A stretch of 49,294 nucleotides of DNA from Parcubacteria bacterium C7867-007. Its GTDB lineage: Bacteria > Patescibacteriota > Minisyncoccia > Phycocordibacterales > Phycocordibacteraceae. The translations under genes and the position numbers were made by a program. The stretch lies in assembly GCA_001189195.1 (NCBI GenBank), contig LFCQ01000006.1, positions 120,841 through 170,134 on the forward strand, written 5' to 3'. The notes under the pieces were generated by a model. It saw only the letters and a list, made by a program, of their open reading frames with translations, was not told the origin of the DNA and made no database searches. Below are positions 5,076-49,275 of the stretch, piece by piece (position 1 is the first letter of the stretch; every line of letters begins with the position of its first letter).

Positions 5076-5168
5076 CTAGTAATCCTATCATTAGGTACGT
5101 GGCTATAATCCACGCGGCGAGTAAAGAAGAAATCGCTTTATTTTTCAGATATGGTATAATCCCACCTA

Positions 5169-5490
5169 GACCGATCCAGACGATCGCTCTGAGTTTCTCA
5201 GGGAGGAAAGTCCGAACTCAGGCTAGCAATAGCAGCAGGGTAGCGGGTAACGCCCGTCCGTAGTGATACGCGAGGTGCGAGCAGAGACGCTCGAAGAGAA
5301 ATCCTAGAGCATCTGACCTCGGTCAGATGAATCCACTTGGCGACTTGTGGGGTGAAACGGCTAAATCCTTACCTCTGTGCAAGGCCGTGCCCAGTAATGG
5401 GAGCGCCGCTTGAGCCGTCTGGTAACAGGCGGCCCAGATAGATGATCGTCCGTACTTCGGTACGACAGAATTCGGCTTATCGGATCGGTC
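5169..5490 (+). ncRNA. rnpB: RNase P RNA (bacterial class A-like)
   Basis: P1 pairing GACCGATCC...GGATCGGTC; conserved GGAGGAAAGTCCG, GGTGAAACGGCTAAATCC, CAGTAATGGGAGCGCCGCTTGAGC and ACAGAATTCGGCTTATCG segments. Confidence 0.95.
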
Positions 5491-5499
5491 TAAATACAT

Positions 5500-25183: not shown

Positions 25184-26506
25184 CTACTCCTCCAGCTTTA
25201 GCATCTTCTGGCTCAAGACCAACCGACTCTTAATACAGAGCAACAACTCACGCTTCTCCGTCACACTACCTTCCTTCAAGAGATACATCGCATACCCACG
25301 CAGATCGATCTCCTCATCCGGCTCAACACCTGATGCTCCAGCAAAGCTCCGCTGGAACTTCCGCATACGTTCGACCTCAGCCTCAAATTTTTGCCTCATC
25401 GTAATACGGTTCAGATCGATATTATCCATGATCTTTACGAGTTGTTCGATCAACTCTTCCTCTCGGATATACCCGCCCTTACATGCGAGGTCTCGCGCCT
25501 TGGTACATCCGTAATAGACATAGCGGTTCGAGGTGCCGTCTTTTAACTTTTTAAATTTCTCGTCAGCAGAGATACCCGAGCCGCAGTCTCCGCACATCAT
25601 GAGCTTGGTAAAGGCGAACTCCTTTATGTCAGAACGCACGATGCGGTCTCGCTTTAGTTGCTCTTGAGCGCGGTCAAACATCTCCTTGGTAATAAGCGGC
25701 TCATGCTTGCCCTGATACCAGTTGCCGGATTTTTCCGGGTACTCGAAGACACCATAGTAGAAAGGATTTTGCAGAACGAGGTACACGCTAGATAGCGTCA
25801 TATTCTTATTCGCACGGCTCGTGAAGTTCAAGTCAAACTTAAGCCATTGGTGGATACGCCTGCCGCTCCATTTCTCATTCACGCACTTTTCGAAGATCTG
25901 TTTGATGACTGGTGCGCGGAGCGGGTCGATAGCCGCGTGGCACTTCTTGTCGGCATACTTCTCGTTGCTGTATCCCACCGGTGCAACACCTGGGCGCAGA
26001 CCCATCTCACAGCGCGTCCTCAGACCACGCTTTACGTTCACGCCTCGATTGTCGTTCTCAAGCTTTGCCTGTGAACCCAGAATCATGAGAAGGAACTTCT
26101 CACTCGGGCTATTACTAAATCGCTGGCCAAACGTGCGTATCTCATGGAGCTTACCTGCATCCATAAGATCAACGATCTTGCCTAGATCACCGGCGTTACG
26201 CGAGATACGGTCTGGTGCCCAGGTAAGGATACCGTTGAATTTCCCTGCATTCAGTTCTTCGATGATCTCGTTGAAGATTGGTCGCTGACCCGTCTCCTTA
26301 GCCGAGTGCGATTCGCGCTTCATGGTCACAACCTCCAGTCCTTCGCGATCCGCGAGTTGGAGCATTTCCTTGATCTGACTGTCTATGGATAGTATCTGCC
26401 GTTCCTCGCTCTCTGTACTCTTACGGGCATACAGACAGTACGTGACCCTAATAGGAGCCTCTATTTGTTTAGCCGGAAATCCCGTCGGCGCTTGTATCGT
26501 ATTCAT
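25184..26506 (-). CDS. large serine recombinase (resolvase domain, recombinase domain, zinc beta-ribbon)
   Basis: 'YARKSTESEERQILSIDSQ', 'LTWAPDRISRNAGD', 'NPFYYGVFEYPEK...YQGKHEPLIT', 'MMCGDCGSGISADEK...YYGCTKARDLACKG'. Confidence 0.93.
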   Translation of the reverse strand: MNTIQAPTGFPAKQIEAPIRVTYCLYARKSTESEERQILSIDSQIKEMLQLADREGLEVVTMKRESHSAKETGQRPIFNEIIEELNAGKFNGILTWAPDRISRNAGDLGKIVDLMDAGKLHEIRTFGQRFSNSPSEKFLLMILGSQAKLENDNRGVNVKRGLRTRCEMGLRPGVAPVGYSNEKYADKKCHAAIDPLRAPVIKQIFEKCVNEKWSGRRIHQWLKFDLNFTSRANKNMTLSSVYLVLQNPFYYGVFEYPEKSGNWYQGKHEPLITKEMFDRAQEQLKRDRIVRSDIKEFAFTKLMMCGDCGSGISADEKFKKLKDGTSNRYVYYGCTKARDLACKGGYIREEELIEQLVKIMDNIDLNRITMRQKFEAEVERMRKFQRSFAGASGVEPDEEIDLRGYAMYLLKEGSVTEKRELLLCIKSRLVLSQKMLKLEE

Positions 26507-30459: not shown

Positions 30460-32754
30460 ATGAACGACTCTCAGACCTACCGTATCAAAGGAATGCACTG
30501 CGCCTCTTGCGCAGGAATCATAGAGCGTACGGTTAAAAAGGTTGATGGCGTAGAACACATTGAAGTGAACTATGGTACTGAAACTGCGAAGATAGCTTTT
30601 GACTCAACGAAAACTGACCCCCATCAGCTTTCAGGCCACATCAAACCACTAGGGTATACGCTAGTCGTACCCACAGCTGAATCAATGGACATGTCTGCGG
30701 ACGAACACGCCTCACATACAGGTCTGAACCAATCGAAGACAGAAAAGCTAGCTGAACTTAAAGAGATGCGATGGAAGATTCTTTCAGTTATACCCCTGGC
30801 AGTTTTCAGCATATTCGTGATGGGTTGGGAAATTCTCGCGCAATTTGGCGTGACAGGAGCTATCCCTGAAATCCTGTACGAGTTCTTCCATCACCTGCTC
30901 CCGATCTTTGCTACATATGTGCTTATAGTAGTCGGACAGCCGTACCTCCTTGGCTTCTACCGCTTCCTTCGCTATGGCAAGGCGAATATGGATACTCTGA
31001 TCGGTATCGGTACCTCCGTTGCCTTCGTGTACAGTTTTATACTTACTGCTTTTGAAGAGCCATTAAGAGCTTTCCTGAACGTCGACCAAACGTATTACGA
31101 TGTAACCATCGTCGTTATCGTGTTCATCGCGCTCGGCAAATATTTAGAAGCTCAGTCAAAACTTAGAACCGGAGACGCAATTGAAAAGCTGCTTGGTCTT
31201 CAAGCAAAGACCGCTCTGGTGATGAGAGACGGCAAGGAAGTCGAAGTGCCAATTGACCAAGTTACCCATGGGGACCTTATCGTCGTGAAGCCAGGCGGCA
31301 AGATTCCGGTTGATGGCGTAATTGTCGAAGGAAATTCGTACATCGACGAATCTATGGTTACGGGAGAACCCATGGCTGTTGAGAAGAAGACTGGAGACAA
31401 TGTGGTCGCTGGAACTCTTAATACGAAGGGCCACTTTGTATTCAAAGCGACTAAAGTCGGCTCTGAAACGCTCCTTGCAAGCATTATAAGAATGGTCGGC
31501 GAAGCTCAAGGCAGCAAGGCACCGATCCAAGGACTTGCCGATAAGATCTCTAGCGTCTTTGTGCCTGTAGTTCTTGTGTTCGCCGTACTTGTCTTTATTG
31601 CATGGCTCGTGCTCGGCATTCCAACACTCGGTCTCGCACAAGCACTTTCTCTCGGCCTCACGTCATTTGTCGGCATTCTTGTTATCGCATGCCCATGCGC
31701 GCTCGGGCTTGCCACACCTATTGCCGTTATTGTCGGTGTTGGAAAGGGAGCCCAGGAAGGCATCCTCATTAAGGACGCGGCAACGCTTCAAAAGCTCAGG
31801 AGCGTAAATACTATTGTCGTAGACAAGACGGGTACGATTACGAAAGGAAAGCCCGAAGTGATTGAGCTACAGACCTTTCAAGGAAAATCAGAGCAGGAAG
31901 TTATGCGTATCCTCGCATCGCTTGAGAGTAAATCAGAGCACCCGCTTGCAAGTGCGATACTCGCGTATGCTGAGGGAAATTCTATTCGTTCGTCCGCCTC
32001 AGAGCAATTCGAGATAATCGAGGGAAAGGGGCTCAAGGGGACGATAGGAAATACCGAATACTTTGCAGGTAACGCAAAGCTTATTAATGATCTCGATATT
32101 CCGTTCGATAGTGGGGTCTTAGCTTCCCATACCAGCGAGGGAAGAACACCTGTCTTTCTTGCTACGAGCAAAGAAGTGCTCGGGCTGGTATTTATTGCAG
32201 ACGCTATAAAGCCTGAAGCAATAGATGCCGTTAAGAGGCTTCATAAGATGGGTATTAAGACGGTCATGCTCACGGGTGATAATCGGCAAGCGGCAGAAGC
32301 GATTGCGAAGCAGGTTGGTATAGACGAGGTCGTGGCAGAAGTCTTGCCAGGAGAGAAGCTCGACAAGATTAAAGAACTCCAAGCAGAAGGCCGAATAGTC
32401 GCCATGGCTGGTGACGGCGTGAACGATGCCCCCGCACTTGCTCAAGCTGACGTAGGTATCGCTATGGGAACGGGTACCGATGTCGCTATCGAAACGGCTG
32501 GCATAACGCTTCTTGGTGGAGACATCGGCAAACTGGTGAAGGCTATTCGACTTTCACGATTCACCATGAACGGAATTAAGCAAAATTTGTTCTGGGCATT
32601 TGCTTACAACATCATCGGTATTCCAATTGCAGCAGGAATACTCTTCCCGTTCTTTGGATTGCTTTTGTCGCCGGTGATTGCGGGACTCGCCATGGCGCTC
32701 TCGAGCGTTTCGGTGGTGCTCAACTCGCTTCGCTTAAAAACTGTAAAACTGTAA
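30460..32754 (+). CDS. copA: copper-translocating P1B-type ATPase with N-terminal HMA domain
   Basis: '[12 protein letters not shown]', '[10 protein letters not shown]', '[11 protein letters not shown]', 'HPLASAI', '[25 protein letters not shown]'. Confidence 0.93.
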
Positions 32755-40779: not shown

Positions 40780-41030
40780 TGATAGGGTCTTGGGCGATAG
40801 CGCATATGGGGCTATCATGTTCCTGTTAGCCAAGACCTAACCCCTAGGATTCCAATCCTAGGATATGGTCGAAAATCCTAGTAGAGATCAAAGGACTCCC
40901 AGTCAGAGTCACTCTACTAGGTCATATCTGGAAACAGGTATGGGTCTGGCCGAAAGGTTGGATCGCGATGGCTGGGAGCCTTTTGATTATCTCTTGGGGC
41001 TCTCTGCTACTTAAAAACCTAGTAGAAAAT
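40780..41030 (+). ncRNA. candidate structured RNA / cis-regulatory leader
   Basis: Nested inverted repeats (40783-40793/40830-40839; 40796-40801/40811-40816; 40843-40851/40854-40862; 40877-40886/40912-40921) and two hairpins capped by GAAA. Confidence 0.45.
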
Positions 41031-41038
41031 AATTACGT

Positions 41039-41518
41039 ATGGATACGCCAACAGCGTCCGCAAAGAAACCTCTTCTTAAGAAGTGGTGGGTCTGGGTACT
41101 TATCGTACTCGGCATCTTTATTATCATAGGTTCGATAGGCGGCTCTGATTCTTCAAGTTCAGGAAGCCAGAGCGCGAAGGAGGAAGTGAAGGTCGAGCCA
41201 GCTCTTACGGTCACGGCTTTCAAAATGGCTGCCGAGTACAAGGAAAACGAAGTCGCTGCAGACGCAAAGTACAAGGGCAAGCTCGTCGAAATATCAGGCA
41301 GCGTAGATACCATCGGCAAAGATGTTCTCGATACGCCGTTTATCGCCTTCTCAACTGAAAATCAGTACGAGATCATCAATCGAATTCAGTGTATGTTTGG
41401 AAAGAACGATGTGGAAGTGCTCTCAAGTGTCTCCAAGGGTCAGAAGATTACCCTTCGCGGTACTGTCTCCGGTGCTCTCGGAAACATCATTGTTAAAGAT
41501 TGCGAAATCATAGAGTAG
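41039..41518 (+). CDS. membrane-anchored OB-fold (tRNA_anti-like) protein
   Basis: N-term TM; 'AAEYKENEVAADAKYKGKLVEISGSVDTIGKD...SVSKGQKITLRGTVSGALGNIIVKDCEI'. Confidence 0.75.
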   Translation: MDTPTASAKKPLLKKWWVWVLIVLGIFIIIGSIGGSDSSSSGSQSAKEEVKVEPALTVTAFKMAAEYKENEVAADAKYKGKLVEISGSVDTIGKDVLDTPFIAFSTENQYEIINRIQCMFGKNDVEVLSSVSKGQKITLRGTVSGALGNIIVKDCEIIE

Positions 41519-43036
41519 CTAGAACCGGCTGTTAAATCCGAGTGGATACCACGGCCCTTCGCCATCGTCCCAGATGCTGTTTCTTCCGAGGTCGATAACA
41601 GTGATACGTGGTGTCGCTCTTCCATAGTGCTCAAGCCCATGATGGGCGAGAATCGTAAATGCATCGACTAGGTCGTCGTGCCGCTCTATGCCAAACCCTA
41701 CGAGCTGCCGGATCAGCTCCTCGCATCCATGCTTCGGGAACTTAATCTTTCCGTTCTGGATGAGCGCAGAAACCGTCATGAGTCGGGAACGTTTGTCGCC
41801 TGATACTTTTACTCCCTTGGCCCCGTATACGTCATGGGCGAGCTGGTCGAGGACCGCTTTCTGGTATCCGACCTCCTCAACCAAAATCTCGACTCGGTTG
41901 TATATCTTTTTGTTGGCGTGATACACCGCTTTGATCTGGTCGATAGTCTGCGGAAACGTAAGACGCTTGTTGATAGGGTTTGGTAGAACGTACAGACAAA
42001 ACTTATCTTCGTGCCCGCTTATGATGCCGGAGACCATCGCCGTGTAATCAGCGGTCTCTTTCTGCGAGATGGCGAGGTCGATACCTACTCCTATATCGAT
42101 AAAGTTTCGTGTTGATTCGGGAATCCCATCGTAGTAGTGAATCCAGTCAGGGTGTATGACCTGATCTTCGTCTGGGACGATATTCAGGAGGTACTCTCGC
42201 TGCCAAGCATACGGATTGCCGCTTTTCTTCCGCTCTACTTCTATATCGGCCATGGTCGGGTATTTCCCCGGCCAAGCGATCTTTTGTGATTCCGAGAGTA
42301 ATGGAAACATCTTGAATACACCTTCACGCTGACCTTCATCAATATCCTTCTTGAGATGCATCACGAGTGAATCCTCATGGAGTAGGTTTCCGATAACGAT
42401 AAGGCGCGTATTCAGTCCGCCGCCTGGTATCACTTCGCCTGTGAGCCAGTGATAGGTTTTCTGCCTTGATTCATAGGTCCGAACGGATTGCAGGTCTTCG
42501 ATGTCGTCGCAGATGATGAGATCCGGGCGATGCTGATTGTGCCGAAGTCCGCGAATACTCTGTTCCATGGACGCGACCGTAATACGTGCGCCAGTATTCG
42601 AGAATACCAAGGACGACGAACCCCATTCGTCGCTTTCTTCTTCAAAGGGCCCCAAGTCACTCTTGAGTAAAGAGTTGCTCTCAAGCTCACGCTTCAAGTT
42701 CATCATGTGCTGCTTGGCCTGAGTACGGGTTTGGAAGAACATTAGTACGAACTTCTTTTGCTGGATACCAAGAATTGACCACAGCGAGTACGAGAACGTG
42801 ACGAGCGTAGATTTACCCGAACCACGGAACGCGACGATGACGGCAAGTTTGTTCTCGCTGTCCTCGGTTATGCGGAAGATGTCTTTCTGGAACTCCGCTA
42901 TCGGGTACTGGACGTAGTGCGAGAAGTACACGTAGAAAAACATGAGGTGCGATTGCCGCGTGACGTGCTGGCGCACCGCGCGGTTCTTCGTGAGTTCCTC
43001 GAATGCATCGTCATCAAGAGGGCTGTTCTGGCTCAT
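41519..43036 (-). CDS. phage terminase large subunit
   Basis: Walker A 'VAFRGSGKSTL', Walker B-like 'LIICDDIED', nuclease-like 'IGVGIDLAISQKETADYTAMV', C-term 'HDDLVDAFTILAHHGLE'. Confidence 0.88.
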   Translation of the reverse strand: MSQNSPLDDDAFEELTKNRAVRQHVTRQSHLMFFYVYFSHYVQYPIAEFQKDIFRITEDSENKLAVIVAFRGSGKSTLVTFSYSLWSILGIQQKKFVLMFFQTRTQAKQHMMNLKRELESNSLLKSDLGPFEEESDEWGSSSLVFSNTGARITVASMEQSIRGLRHNQHRPDLIICDDIEDLQSVRTYESRQKTYHWLTGEVIPGGGLNTRLIVIGNLLHEDSLVMHLKKDIDEGQREGVFKMFPLLSESQKIAWPGKYPTMADIEVERKKSGNPYAWQREYLLNIVPDEDQVIHPDWIHYYDGIPESTRNFIDIGVGIDLAISQKETADYTAMVSGIISGHEDKFCLYVLPNPINKRLTFPQTIDQIKAVYHANKKIYNRVEILVEEVGYQKAVLDQLAHDVYGAKGVKVSGDKRSRLMTVSALIQNGKIKFPKHGCEELIRQLVGFGIERHDDLVDAFTILAHHGLEHYGRATPRITVIDLGRNSIWDDGEGPWYPLGFNSRF

Positions 43037-43421
43037 GAGGCTTAAGCGTTAAGTTCGCAAGCGACAACGCCTTATGGACGAGTTCTTTCTGCTCGTCCGA
43101 AAGTTCCTGAATTGTGTTCACGGTCCCTTCGATCTGCACTTTGGTGCGATACGAAGGATGGTTGTGTTTCAGCCATCCCATAACTGCGGTCATATTCCGG
43201 TCTTTGATAGCACCGATGAGCTGACCTTCTGCTAGATCGTTCACCATGAGTCTGCCTTCGAGCAGAGCGTCGTCCACGCTCTTTGCGAAGTCCGCATTCT
43301 CCGCTCGCCATCGGTATAAGGTCACACGGCTGATGCCGACCTTCTCGCATCCGACCTGAAGGATTGGTGTCTTGCGGAGTTGTTCAAGAAGCGCGGCTTT
43401 TGAGGCGTCCGACTTTTTCAT
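43014..43421 (-). CDS. terminase small subunit-like HTH protein
   Basis: 'ILQVGCEKVGISRVTLYRWRAENADFAKSVDDALLEGRLMVNDLAEGQLIGAIKDRNMTAVMGWLKHNHPSYR'; overlaps the large subunit gene. Confidence 0.75.
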   Translation of the reverse strand: MKKSDASKAALLEQLRKTPILQVGCEKVGISRVTLYRWRAENADFAKSVDDALLEGRLMVNDLAEGQLIGAIKDRNMTAVMGWLKHNHPSYRTKVQIEGTVNTIQELSDEQKELVHKALSLANLTLKPHEPEQPS

Positions 43422-44689
43422 ACCTTCACAGCCTTCTGGCCAGTTAGCCTCTCATAGCGGCGAATGATGAGATCTACGAAGATTGGCTCGCGCTCAATCA
43501 GGTATGCAGACCGCTTCAACTGCTCGCACGCAATCAAAAGACTGCCTGAACCACCAAAGCAGTCGAGGATGATGTCAGAGGGCTTGGTACAGCGCCTCAG
43601 CGCCCTCTCATGGAGCACAGGCGGCTTCTCGGTCGGGTGTTGATATCCAGTCCCATTCAGCCGCTTTACGAGCCAGATATCGAGGAGGTCATAGATGTCT
43701 TCAAGAGTCTGATTTCCCGTGCCGATCTCCTTGTTCAGGATTTCGGAGAGATTCAGCACCTTGTCCGAGAGGTACGGCTTGCCGATTGTGCCGTACACGC
43801 ACGGCTCGTACTGCTTGTTGAACGCGCTATGCGGCGTAGGTGAGGAGTTATTCTTAATCCAGAGGCACACCCGCTTGTTCGCGATGCCGGATTCCTGATA
43901 CAGGCTCTGCAAGAGCCAGATGTACCGCTGGTCGCAGTAGGTGAAAACGTGCGCGTCTTTCTTGGTAACAGCAATCGCGTTCTTGAGACAGGAAGCGAGA
44001 AATGCTTTGTATGCCTTGTCGGTGAGGGAATCATCGACAGTGCCGCCATACGACTTCTTGCCGCCTACGCCTTTGTCGTACGAAAGCCCGATGTTGTATG
44101 GCGGGTCGGTCAGGATGGTGTCGGCTTTCTTTCCGGCCATGAGTCGTGCAAACGTATCAGGGTCGGTACTGTCCCCGCAGATGAGACGGTGCGAGCCGAG
44201 CTGGTATAAATCGCCGGTCTTTGCTTTTGGTTTCTTAATCTTTGCTAACTCCTTCTCGACATCAAACTCATCATGCTCGACCTCAAGATCGTCGAAGAGA
44301 TGCGACAGATCGGTATCATCGAAGCCGCTCGCAAGCAGGGTCTCGACATCGAACTCGTCCACGAGTTTTTGCCAGTCCCAGTCTCCGTGGATACGGTTAG
44401 AACCGAGGAGGTACTGGTCGTACTCTTTCTTCGTGAGCTTGCGGTTCGGCACACGGACCGAAATAGTCTCTTTCTCGCGTCCGAGGAGTTTCAAAACCAT
44501 GAGCCGCTGGTGCCCAGCGATCACGGTGTTGTTCTTGTCGATCACAGGAAGTTCTACGAGATCGAACTTCCTGAGACTCTTCTTCAAGTCTTCGATCTGT
44601 TTTGCGCTCATAGTGCGCGGGTTTCTGATATTAGGCACAAGGTCGGCGATCTTGCGGTTCTGGGTAGTCCAGGAGAGTTTTGCTGGCAT
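43418..44689 (-). CDS. ParB-like nuclease domain fused to a DNA methyltransferase
   Basis: 'NIRNPRTMSAKQIEDLKKSLRKFDLVELPVIDKNNTVIAGHQRL' plus 'DTILTDPPYNIGLSYD' and 'DIILDCFGGSGSLLIACEQLKRSAYLIEREPIFVDLIIRRYE'. Confidence 0.9.
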   Translation of the reverse strand: MPAKLSWTTQNRKIADLVPNIRNPRTMSAKQIEDLKKSLRKFDLVELPVIDKNNTVIAGHQRLMVLKLLGREKETISVRVPNRKLTKKEYDQYLLGSNRIHGDWDWQKLVDEFDVETLLASGFDDTDLSHLFDDLEVEHDEFDVEKELAKIKKPKAKTGDLYQLGSHRLICGDSTDPDTFARLMAGKKADTILTDPPYNIGLSYDKGVGGKKSYGGTVDDSLTDKAYKAFLASCLKNAIAVTKKDAHVFTYCDQRYIWLLQSLYQESGIANKRVCLWIKNNSSPTPHSAFNKQYEPCVYGTIGKPYLSDKVLNLSEILNKEIGTGNQTLEDIYDLLDIWLVKRLNGTGYQHPTEKPPVLHERALRRCTKPSDIILDCFGGSGSLLIACEQLKRSAYLIEREPIFVDLIIRRYERLTGQKAVKV

Positions 44690-44849
44690 ATGAGTAAAAT
44701 GATGAATAAGCAGATTGCTCTGTACATCCAGCAAACCAACAATTTCATTTGCTCGACACGCCCGTTATCGTGAACGGAAAGAGAAATACCGCTCGTAATT
44801 GAGCCGTATTTCAAATCTTATCCACCGTCACGATGGCGTCCGGATGGCC

Positions 44850-47991: not shown

Positions 47992-49275
47992 TTATTTCTT
48001 GTGGCGGCGGAGGAAGCTTGGAATGGCACCCCAGGCGTCATCCTCATCCTCTATAACAGGAGGAGTGATAGGTTGTGCTGTGTCGCGTACCTTTGGCATT
48101 GCAGTAACTATAGGTTCTTCACGTTCACGGCGAGGAGGAAGGATAGGACCTTCGTCACTAACAGGTTCAGGCATCGGGGTTGGAAGGGGCACTACTGGTT
48201 CCTCACGGCGACCAAGTACGTCATTGAAAATCTTTCCACGACTCTCCTCCTGTTCCTTTGCAGGCATGGTGAAGAGAGAACGTTCGAAACCTCCGCTAAA
48301 TGCGCTTCCGCCATCCTGTTCTGGGAATCCTGTAGCGATAACAATGATGCGGATCTGGCCCTTCTTGAGTTTCTCATCGCGCATGATACCGAAGATAACC
48401 TTTGCTGTTTTATCAACGGACTCACCGATAACCTTAGCTGCTTCCTGCACCTCAAGGATACCCAGATCCTCAGAGCCTGCGACCACGAAGAGGATACCCT
48501 TAGCACCCGTGATAGAGACGTCGAGAAGTGGGGAATTAACCGCAGCTGCTGCAGCATCCTTTGCTCGGTTGTCGCCATCGGCAATACCAATACCCATGAG
48601 TGCTGGACCTGCACCCTCCATAATTGCTTTGATGTCGTTAAAGTCTGTATTGATTTCACCGGGAGTGGTGATGATATCTGAAACACCTTCCACTGCCTGA
48701 CGAAGGATTTCATCACAGAGTGCAAATGCATTCTTAGCAGATGTCTGTGCTTCTACAATTGAAAGAAGTTTGTCGTTTGGAATGATGAGATACGCATCCA
48801 CCTCCTTCTTAAGAAGTGCGAGACCATGTTCAGCGATTTCAGTGCGCTGCTGACCCTCGAAGGTGAAGGGCTTTGTTACAACAGCAACAGTGAGAGCACC
48901 GAGCTCCTTTGCAATCTTTGCAACAACACCCGCTGCACCGGTTCCGGTACCTCCACCCATACCGCAGGTGATGAAGACCATGTCTGAACCCTGGAGTGCT
49001 TCCTGGATTTCCTGACGAGTCTCATCTGCCGCACGGCGACCGAGTTCAGGATTCATGCCTGCACCCAGACCACGGGTCAGATTCTTGCCAATATGGATCT
49101 TTCGCTTTGCGAGGCTACGGTGTAGATCCTGGGCATCAGTGTTGATAGCGATGAATTCTACGCCCTTAACCTTGGAGTTGATCATGTGATTCACAGCATT
49201 GTTGCCAGAACCACCAACACCCACCACACGAATGCGGGCGAAGGTTTCTATTTCAGGAGTAACGCGCTTGGACAT
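47992..49275 (-). CDS. ftsZ: cell division protein FtsZ
   Basis: '[18 protein letters not shown]', 'INTDAQDL', '[26 protein letters not shown]', '[18 protein letters not shown]'. Confidence 0.97.

Follow-up and report, generated by a model that had tools for sequence, protein, structure and literature searches.

A LOOT RNA beside phage-like genes of a Parcubacteria genome as a candidate two-state leader

The window analysed here, meaning the whole 49,294-nt stretch of DNA, carries a structured RNA directly ahead of a gene for a small tRNA_anti-like protein, with terminase and ParB/methylase genes adjoining on the opposite strand (Table 1). The protein matches PHROG 8545, annotated "superinfection exclusion Sie-like" (E 2.6e-25), and PHROG 4980 (E 1.6e-7), and it resembles the products of superinfection-exclusion morons. 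The only two relatives recognisable in 59 related genomes are weak N-terminal matches, and both are encoded immediately 3' of RNAs of the same kind. A serine integrase lies 14 kb away, and the segment from 25184 to 46013 looks like an integrated island. Between the integrase and the RNA, inspection by eye showed an ORF resembling a copper-type P-ATPase (30460-32754) alongside further genes for metal and redox functions. An FtsZ-like ORF (47992-49275) follows the ParB/methylase gene, and an ordinary bacterial RNase P class A RNA (RF00010) is found at 5168-5495.

Table 1 Features of the RNA locus and of the neighbouring genes in the window; interpretations of regulatory elements are predictions.
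Feature	Position	Strand	Basis
Serine integrase	25184-26506	-	PHROG 95 match G000:C2:146213-147355, E 1.6e-63
Promoter-like region: -35 TTGGGC (40790-40795), 17-nt spacer, -10-like TATCAT (40813-40818)	40790-40818	+	Box enrichment in the family
LOOT RNA as modelled by RF03000	40834-40964	+	cmscan against Rfam
P1 (GACC/GGTC) with hairpin P1a (CCTAGG/CCTAGG)	40834-40870	+	Window repeats, Rfam alignment, covariation in alignment A1
P2: 5' arm A (40877-40886), loop L (40887-40911), 3' arm A' (40912-40921)	40877-40921	+	Window repeats, covariation
P4 hairpin, GAAA loop	40923-40942	+	Covariation
P5 hairpin, GAAA loop	40943-40964	+	9 bp by inspection; Rfam alignment
S3', 3' strand of P3 with U-rich run at its end; pairs with L 40887-40905	40969-40987	+	18/19 pairs
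S4, spacer segment complementary to S3', would compete with P3	40996-41009	+	Window pairing; family statistics
A'', A-run plus copy of P2 5' arm (AAAAACCTAGTAGA), 5' of start codon	41013-41026	+	Window repeats, family statistics
Putative regulated gene: 159-aa tRNA_anti-like (OB-fold) protein, hydrophobic N-terminal stretch	41039-41518	+	PF12869, E 1.3e-22
Terminase large	41519-43036	-	PHROG 38, E 2.7e-75
Terminase small-like	43014-43421	-	PHROG 4044, E 2.2e-8
ParB/DNA methylase	43418-44734	-	PHROG 498, E 9e-98

The RNA belongs to LOOT (RF03000), a catalogued bacterial family, with a cmscan score of 77.5 bits against a gathering cut-off of 46.4 (E 4e-15) and a complete match that covers all model positions 1-121. 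A passage in the Rfam 14 article (PMC7779021) gives LOOT as one of the candidates of Weinberg et al. 2017. The first-pass annotation, which recognised no known Rfam class in the interval, was mistaken on this point, and the match rules out an unknown RNA class. Its list of inverted repeats is confirmed throughout, with GGTCTTGG/CCAAGACC at 40786-40793/40830-40837 enclosing GATAGC/GCTATC, CCTAGGATT/AATCCTAGG at 40843-40851/40854-40862, CCTAGTAGAG/CTCTACTAGG at 40877-40886/40912-40921, and the hairpins CATATCTG-GAAA-CAGGTATG at 40923-40942 and GGTCTGGCC-GAAA-GGTTGGATC at 40943-40964. Folding energy was -101.1 kcal/mol compared with -74.3 +/- 5.0 in 200 dinucleotide shuffles (z -5.4), which is far outside chance.

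Comparison drew on about 170 LOOT copies (167 in the counts of leader position and promoter-like boxes), nearly all from Patescibacteria. The conserved CCUAA, AUGG and AAA junction and the GAAA loop are present in alignment A1, where 91% of cells in the consensus stems are paired, against 69% when shuffled, and 29 of 33 pairs show two-sided changes. P4 has 8 pairs, with 98% of cells paired and two-sided changes in 8/8. At the base of P1a, in the P1/P1a junction, what looks like non-canonical co-variation links CCUAAACC to GGCAUGG, and CCUAACCC to GGUAUGG or GGAUAUGG. Covariation in all stems tested bears out the earlier proposal of a structured RNA, and the alternative pairings proposed with it find support in the mutually exclusive pairings, in leader position, described below.

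The P2 loop of LOOT copies is complementary to a tail lying just 3' of the end of the RF03000 model. The first-pass annotation had seen part of this pairing as CTCCCAG/CTGGGAG; it really extends over 18/19 nt, joining 40887-40905 to 40969-40987. With RNAduplex, the loop paired with its own tail at a mean of -23.3 kcal/mol versus -13.3 for swapped tails in 83 loci (z -25), and with -23.7 versus -13.1 kcal/mol in the 84 other loci left out of the discovery (z -22.7); these permutation z-scores, like those below, partly reflect kinship of the loci and are not probabilities, because the loci are related to one another. In a MAFFT alignment not fitted to the proposed structure, this helix, P3, has 11 pairs with about 92% of cells paired and two-sided changes in 9. 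Comparison among copies shows P3 to be a covarying, predicted pseudoknot absent from RF03000. Since P3 uses only the P2 loop, it can coexist with the P2 stem, and the homologues favour this pseudoknot over the obligatory competition with the CCTAGTAGAG stem that had been supposed.

The second CCTAGTAGA, noted earlier at about 41019, is present at 41017-41025 and proved more informative than any other feature of the observation. It belongs to A'', which can pair at 10/10 positions with 40913-40922 of A'. An exact downstream repeat of the P2 5' arm, 8 nt or longer, occurs in 20/93 loci and, out of sample, in 20/84 new loci, compared with ~1% when arms and downstream regions are exchanged between loci. 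Its end mostly falls 1-5 nt before the AUG, with 12 nt in the window, and AAA precedes the copy in 33/36 cases (background 13%), as it also precedes arm A itself. The sequence of the P2 arm differs among LOOT copies and the downstream repeat tracks it. The window, L098 and L306 have the arm CCTAGTAGAG and the copy CCTAGTAGA, while L307 has CCCGCTAGAG and CCCGCTAGA; L307 keeps an identical 25-nt loop despite its different arm, a triple co-change. A clear A'' is found in about a quarter of LOOTs, the window included, and some three quarters are without one.

Searches for further sites of the arm point to a local partner. Exact sites of AAANCCTAGTAGA in the whole genome number two, the arm and its downstream copy, and no trans target of AAANCCTAGTAGA was found elsewhere in the genome of the window. 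Four sites of similar pattern in another genome (G012) are two LOOTs and their own two copies. Across six genomes, 6 of 10 sites of AANNCCGACCAAG are LOOT arms and copies, one is a copy in G341, and three are stray. Comparison places the copy, like the loop mimic described below, in cis only. The idea that A'' substitutes for a Shine-Dalgarno sequence was discarded, as such motifs are about equally rare in genes with a copy (3/37) and without (19/124; Fisher p 0.41).

The spacer between S3' and A'' holds another complementary segment. Pairing of S3' with its own S4 scored -14.1 versus -10.9 for swapped partners in the first locus set (z -11.8) and -14.25 versus -11.3 in the second (z -9.9), while the control pairings of arm 5' with spacer and of loop with spacer gave no signal in either set. 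Loci with A'' have a stronger S4 (p 0.002), and comparison of the loci shows S4 to be, in all likelihood, a second mimic, here of the P2 loop. It ends 5' of A'' in 30/37 loci and therefore S3':S4 would lie within A':A'', giving a nested alternative to P2 plus P3. Over 36 loci the estimated energy of this fold (fold II) minus that of the pseudoknotted one (fold I) has a median of -2.5 kcal/mol (IQR -5.6 to +3.2) in a total of about -75, energies that can be called similar and no more, because the comparison assumes an 8 kcal/mol pseudoknot penalty.

LOOT copies stand in a consistent relation to the gene that follows. A same-strand ATG ORF begins 25-130 nt past the Rfam end in 158/167 copies, and at 40-70 nt in 126, whereas on the divergent upstream side an ATG ORF is found in 54/165 (14 at 40-70 nt) and in shuffled sequence in 14%. 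This comparison shows LOOT to occupy the position expected of a 5' leader of the next gene. Among the 167 copies, TATAAT-like boxes concentrate at 10-35 nt 5' of LOOT, and a -35/-10-like pair lies upstream in 76/167, compared with 16/167 in a control stretch. The promoter-like site in the window is weak and would put the transcript start at about 40825. The GATAGC/GCTATC inverted repeat sits inside this promoter-like region, over the -10-like box. Reading the 5' hairpin (40785-40838) as part of the RNA did not survive comparison: the repeat exists, but it is not conserved and it overlaps the promoter-like boxes. Because TATCAT lies inside it, the TAGGTCTTGG...GATAGC hairpin is likelier promoter or operator DNA than RNA, and it is probably promoter DNA upstream of the transcript. 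At the equivalent place L306, L098 and L307 carry inverted repeats of a similar kind, and the repeat at 40786-40837 is possibly an operator for a repressor.

Of 287 genomes from the phylum to which the window belongs, 62 had LOOT above the cut-off, with as many as five copies in one genome. Some members of the window's genus have it and others do not, a patchiness that would suit a mobile feature. When GTDB genomes were scanned with a degenerate pattern and then with the covariance model, LOOT was confined almost entirely to Patescibacteria and to MAGs without a name. Exceptions are probably mis-binned, among them a 5.6-kb contig labelled Candidatus Bathyarchaeota that carries a strong LOOT (2306-2444 of L158). 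Among named phage and plasmid records, blastn gave no match to the window copy. IMG/VR yielded 24 pattern matches, only one of which (L144) is a LOOT, beside serine integrase-like and ParB/methylase-like genes whose functions are assigned by resemblance to the searched families. Three near-identical LOOTs at contig ends in a single genome (L088, L089 and L112, on contigs C25, C40 and C88 of G096) fit an assembly interrupted by a repeated element.

A serine integrase (PHROG 95) lies within 10 kb of at least 37 of 63 LOOT copies versus about 3.8 expected, figures that are approximate owing to rounded genome sizes, and a terminase (PHROG 38) is near 9 versus 0.5 expected. By comparison across genomes, LOOT shows an association with putative mobile elements. 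Downstream genes are diverse and include SNase, DNA methylases, DUF4352, SHOCT, zinc ribbons and a superinfection-immunity family; no common family emerged among 102 of them, SHOCT, SNase, DUF4352, DNA methylases and others each accounting for 3-5. Nor was a conserved pathway found among the LOOT downstream genes, and, as these genes are not related among themselves, they point to no metabolite pathway. One locus (L065, G112:C3:17612-18107) has two tandem LOOT-ORF cassettes with small paralogous ORFs (MPKFKIDFWFDQ.../MPKYKIDIWFDQ...), and members of this ORF family also lie 3' of LOOT in L119 and L122.

We propose, with a probability of roughly 0.6 and from sequence comparison, that LOOT acts in cis as a translational switch with two states, placed at the start codon of a cargo gene in a mobile element or prophage. 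Two features that mark a cis switch are found here: a 5' leader position, and conserved pairings that exclude each other, one of which lies at the start codon. Fold I would comprise P1, P1a, P2 (A:A'), P4, P5 and P3 (L:S3'), leaving the spacer and AUG free. In fold II, A'' would replace A on A' and S4 would replace L on S3', producing a fully nested structure in which the final helix stops just short of the AUG. During transcription P2 would form first, and the tail could then pair either with the P2 loop, completing fold I, or with S4, whereupon A'' could displace A. Because fold I forms first during transcription on this model, fold II would need a trigger. We infer that both folds occur in the cell and that fold II blocks ribosome entry, so that fold I would be the ON state, presumably stabilised by some ligand, protein or event. 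Whether the same logic extends to a general strand-swap switch for Patescibacteria mobile-element cargo, with a copy-specific barcode stem and a near-exact replica of AAA plus arm at the gene start, is a more tentative proposition, to which we give slightly less than even odds. The start region could there take the place of the replicated arm inside the RNA, and if this is true copy-specific barcodes would prevent cross-talk between neighbouring LOOTs.

Other roles for LOOT must be weighed against this proposal. Rfam types the family as "Gene; sRNA", and a stand-alone trans-acting sRNA, whose transcript would end at the U-rich run after P3 and whose released A' would pair with mRNA start regions, would fit the promoter-like boxes of its own and the compact pseudoknot with a U-rich tail seen in nearly all copies. 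We nevertheless find it unlikely, given that the matching copy occurs in cis right after its own LOOT, that the searched genomes offer little beyond LOOTs and their own copies apart from a few strays, and that nearly all LOOTs keep a similar short distance to a same-strand gene. The U-rich stretch directly after the GC-rich P3 helix could also be taken as an intrinsic terminator, so that preventing P3 would permit transcription of the gene. Such an attenuator appears to us just as unlikely as the sRNA, because the U-run is often only CUUUGUGUUU and its first Us fall within P3, and because S4 and A'', although they track the LOOT sequence, are placed 3' of the U-run and next to the AUG, a position in which they would have no classical anti-terminator role.

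A translational activator would use the same pairings with the opposite sign, A'' docking where A would otherwise sit in the LOOT core and positioning the AUG for the ribosome, with fold II as the ON state. The copying of AAA and arm as one module, as if A'' replaced A in the junction, speaks for this, as do the tight spacing of A'' to the AUG and the scarcity of Shine-Dalgarno-like motifs. However, that scarcity is shared by loci without a copy, and a helix of 9-12 bp abutting an AUG is more often inhibitory; we regard the activator as improbable. Strong clustering with serine integrases and terminases, and the tandem cassettes of L065, might finally suggest a site acting at the DNA level in recombination, replication or packaging of a mobile element, its hairpins only RNA-like. 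Against it stand the directionality of the element, with promoter-like boxes upstream and an AUG downstream, the frequency of G-U pairs in conserved stems (33/52 at P3 pair 76-165, for example), the conserved unpaired AAA and GAAA loops, and integrase genes that are usually kilobases distant. This explanation seems very remote.

The leader position, the pseudoknot that the model omits and the self-copy at the start codon move LOOT, for which we know of no function and which to our knowledge is an orphan family, from "function unknown" to a testable model. With them, the full-length construct for probing or structural studies grows from 121 to about 220 nt. More broadly, LOOT points to a possible RNA device for accessory genes, perhaps ones for phage exclusion, in the Patescibacteria, a group that is still largely uncultured.

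Compared with known systems, the window copy shares with RF03000 the P1/P1a/P2/P4/P5 layout and the conserved CCUAA, AUGG, AAA and GAAA. The Rfam model ends at P5 and lacks P3, the U-rich tail, S4 and A''; beyond it lie P3, the leader position, the start-site copy, the S4 mimic and the serine integrase association, and a family typed as sRNA is read here as a probable cis-regulatory leader. The locus resembles prophage morons and superinfection-exclusion genes (PHROG 8545 and 4980; PF12869) in gene family, promoter-like region and position beside phage genes, but unlike them it has a leader common to many unrelated cargo genes, and we know of no morons in general that carry a LOOT leader. A mechanistic parallel may be drawn with translational riboswitches that contain pseudoknots, such as preQ1-II and SAM-II, which set a pseudoknot in competition with pairings of the ribosome-entry site and have a single leader with two folds that are close in energy. 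LOOT differs from these riboswitches in having no Rfam match to them and in that its predicted sequestering strand is a near-exact, copy-specific copy of its own stem arm.
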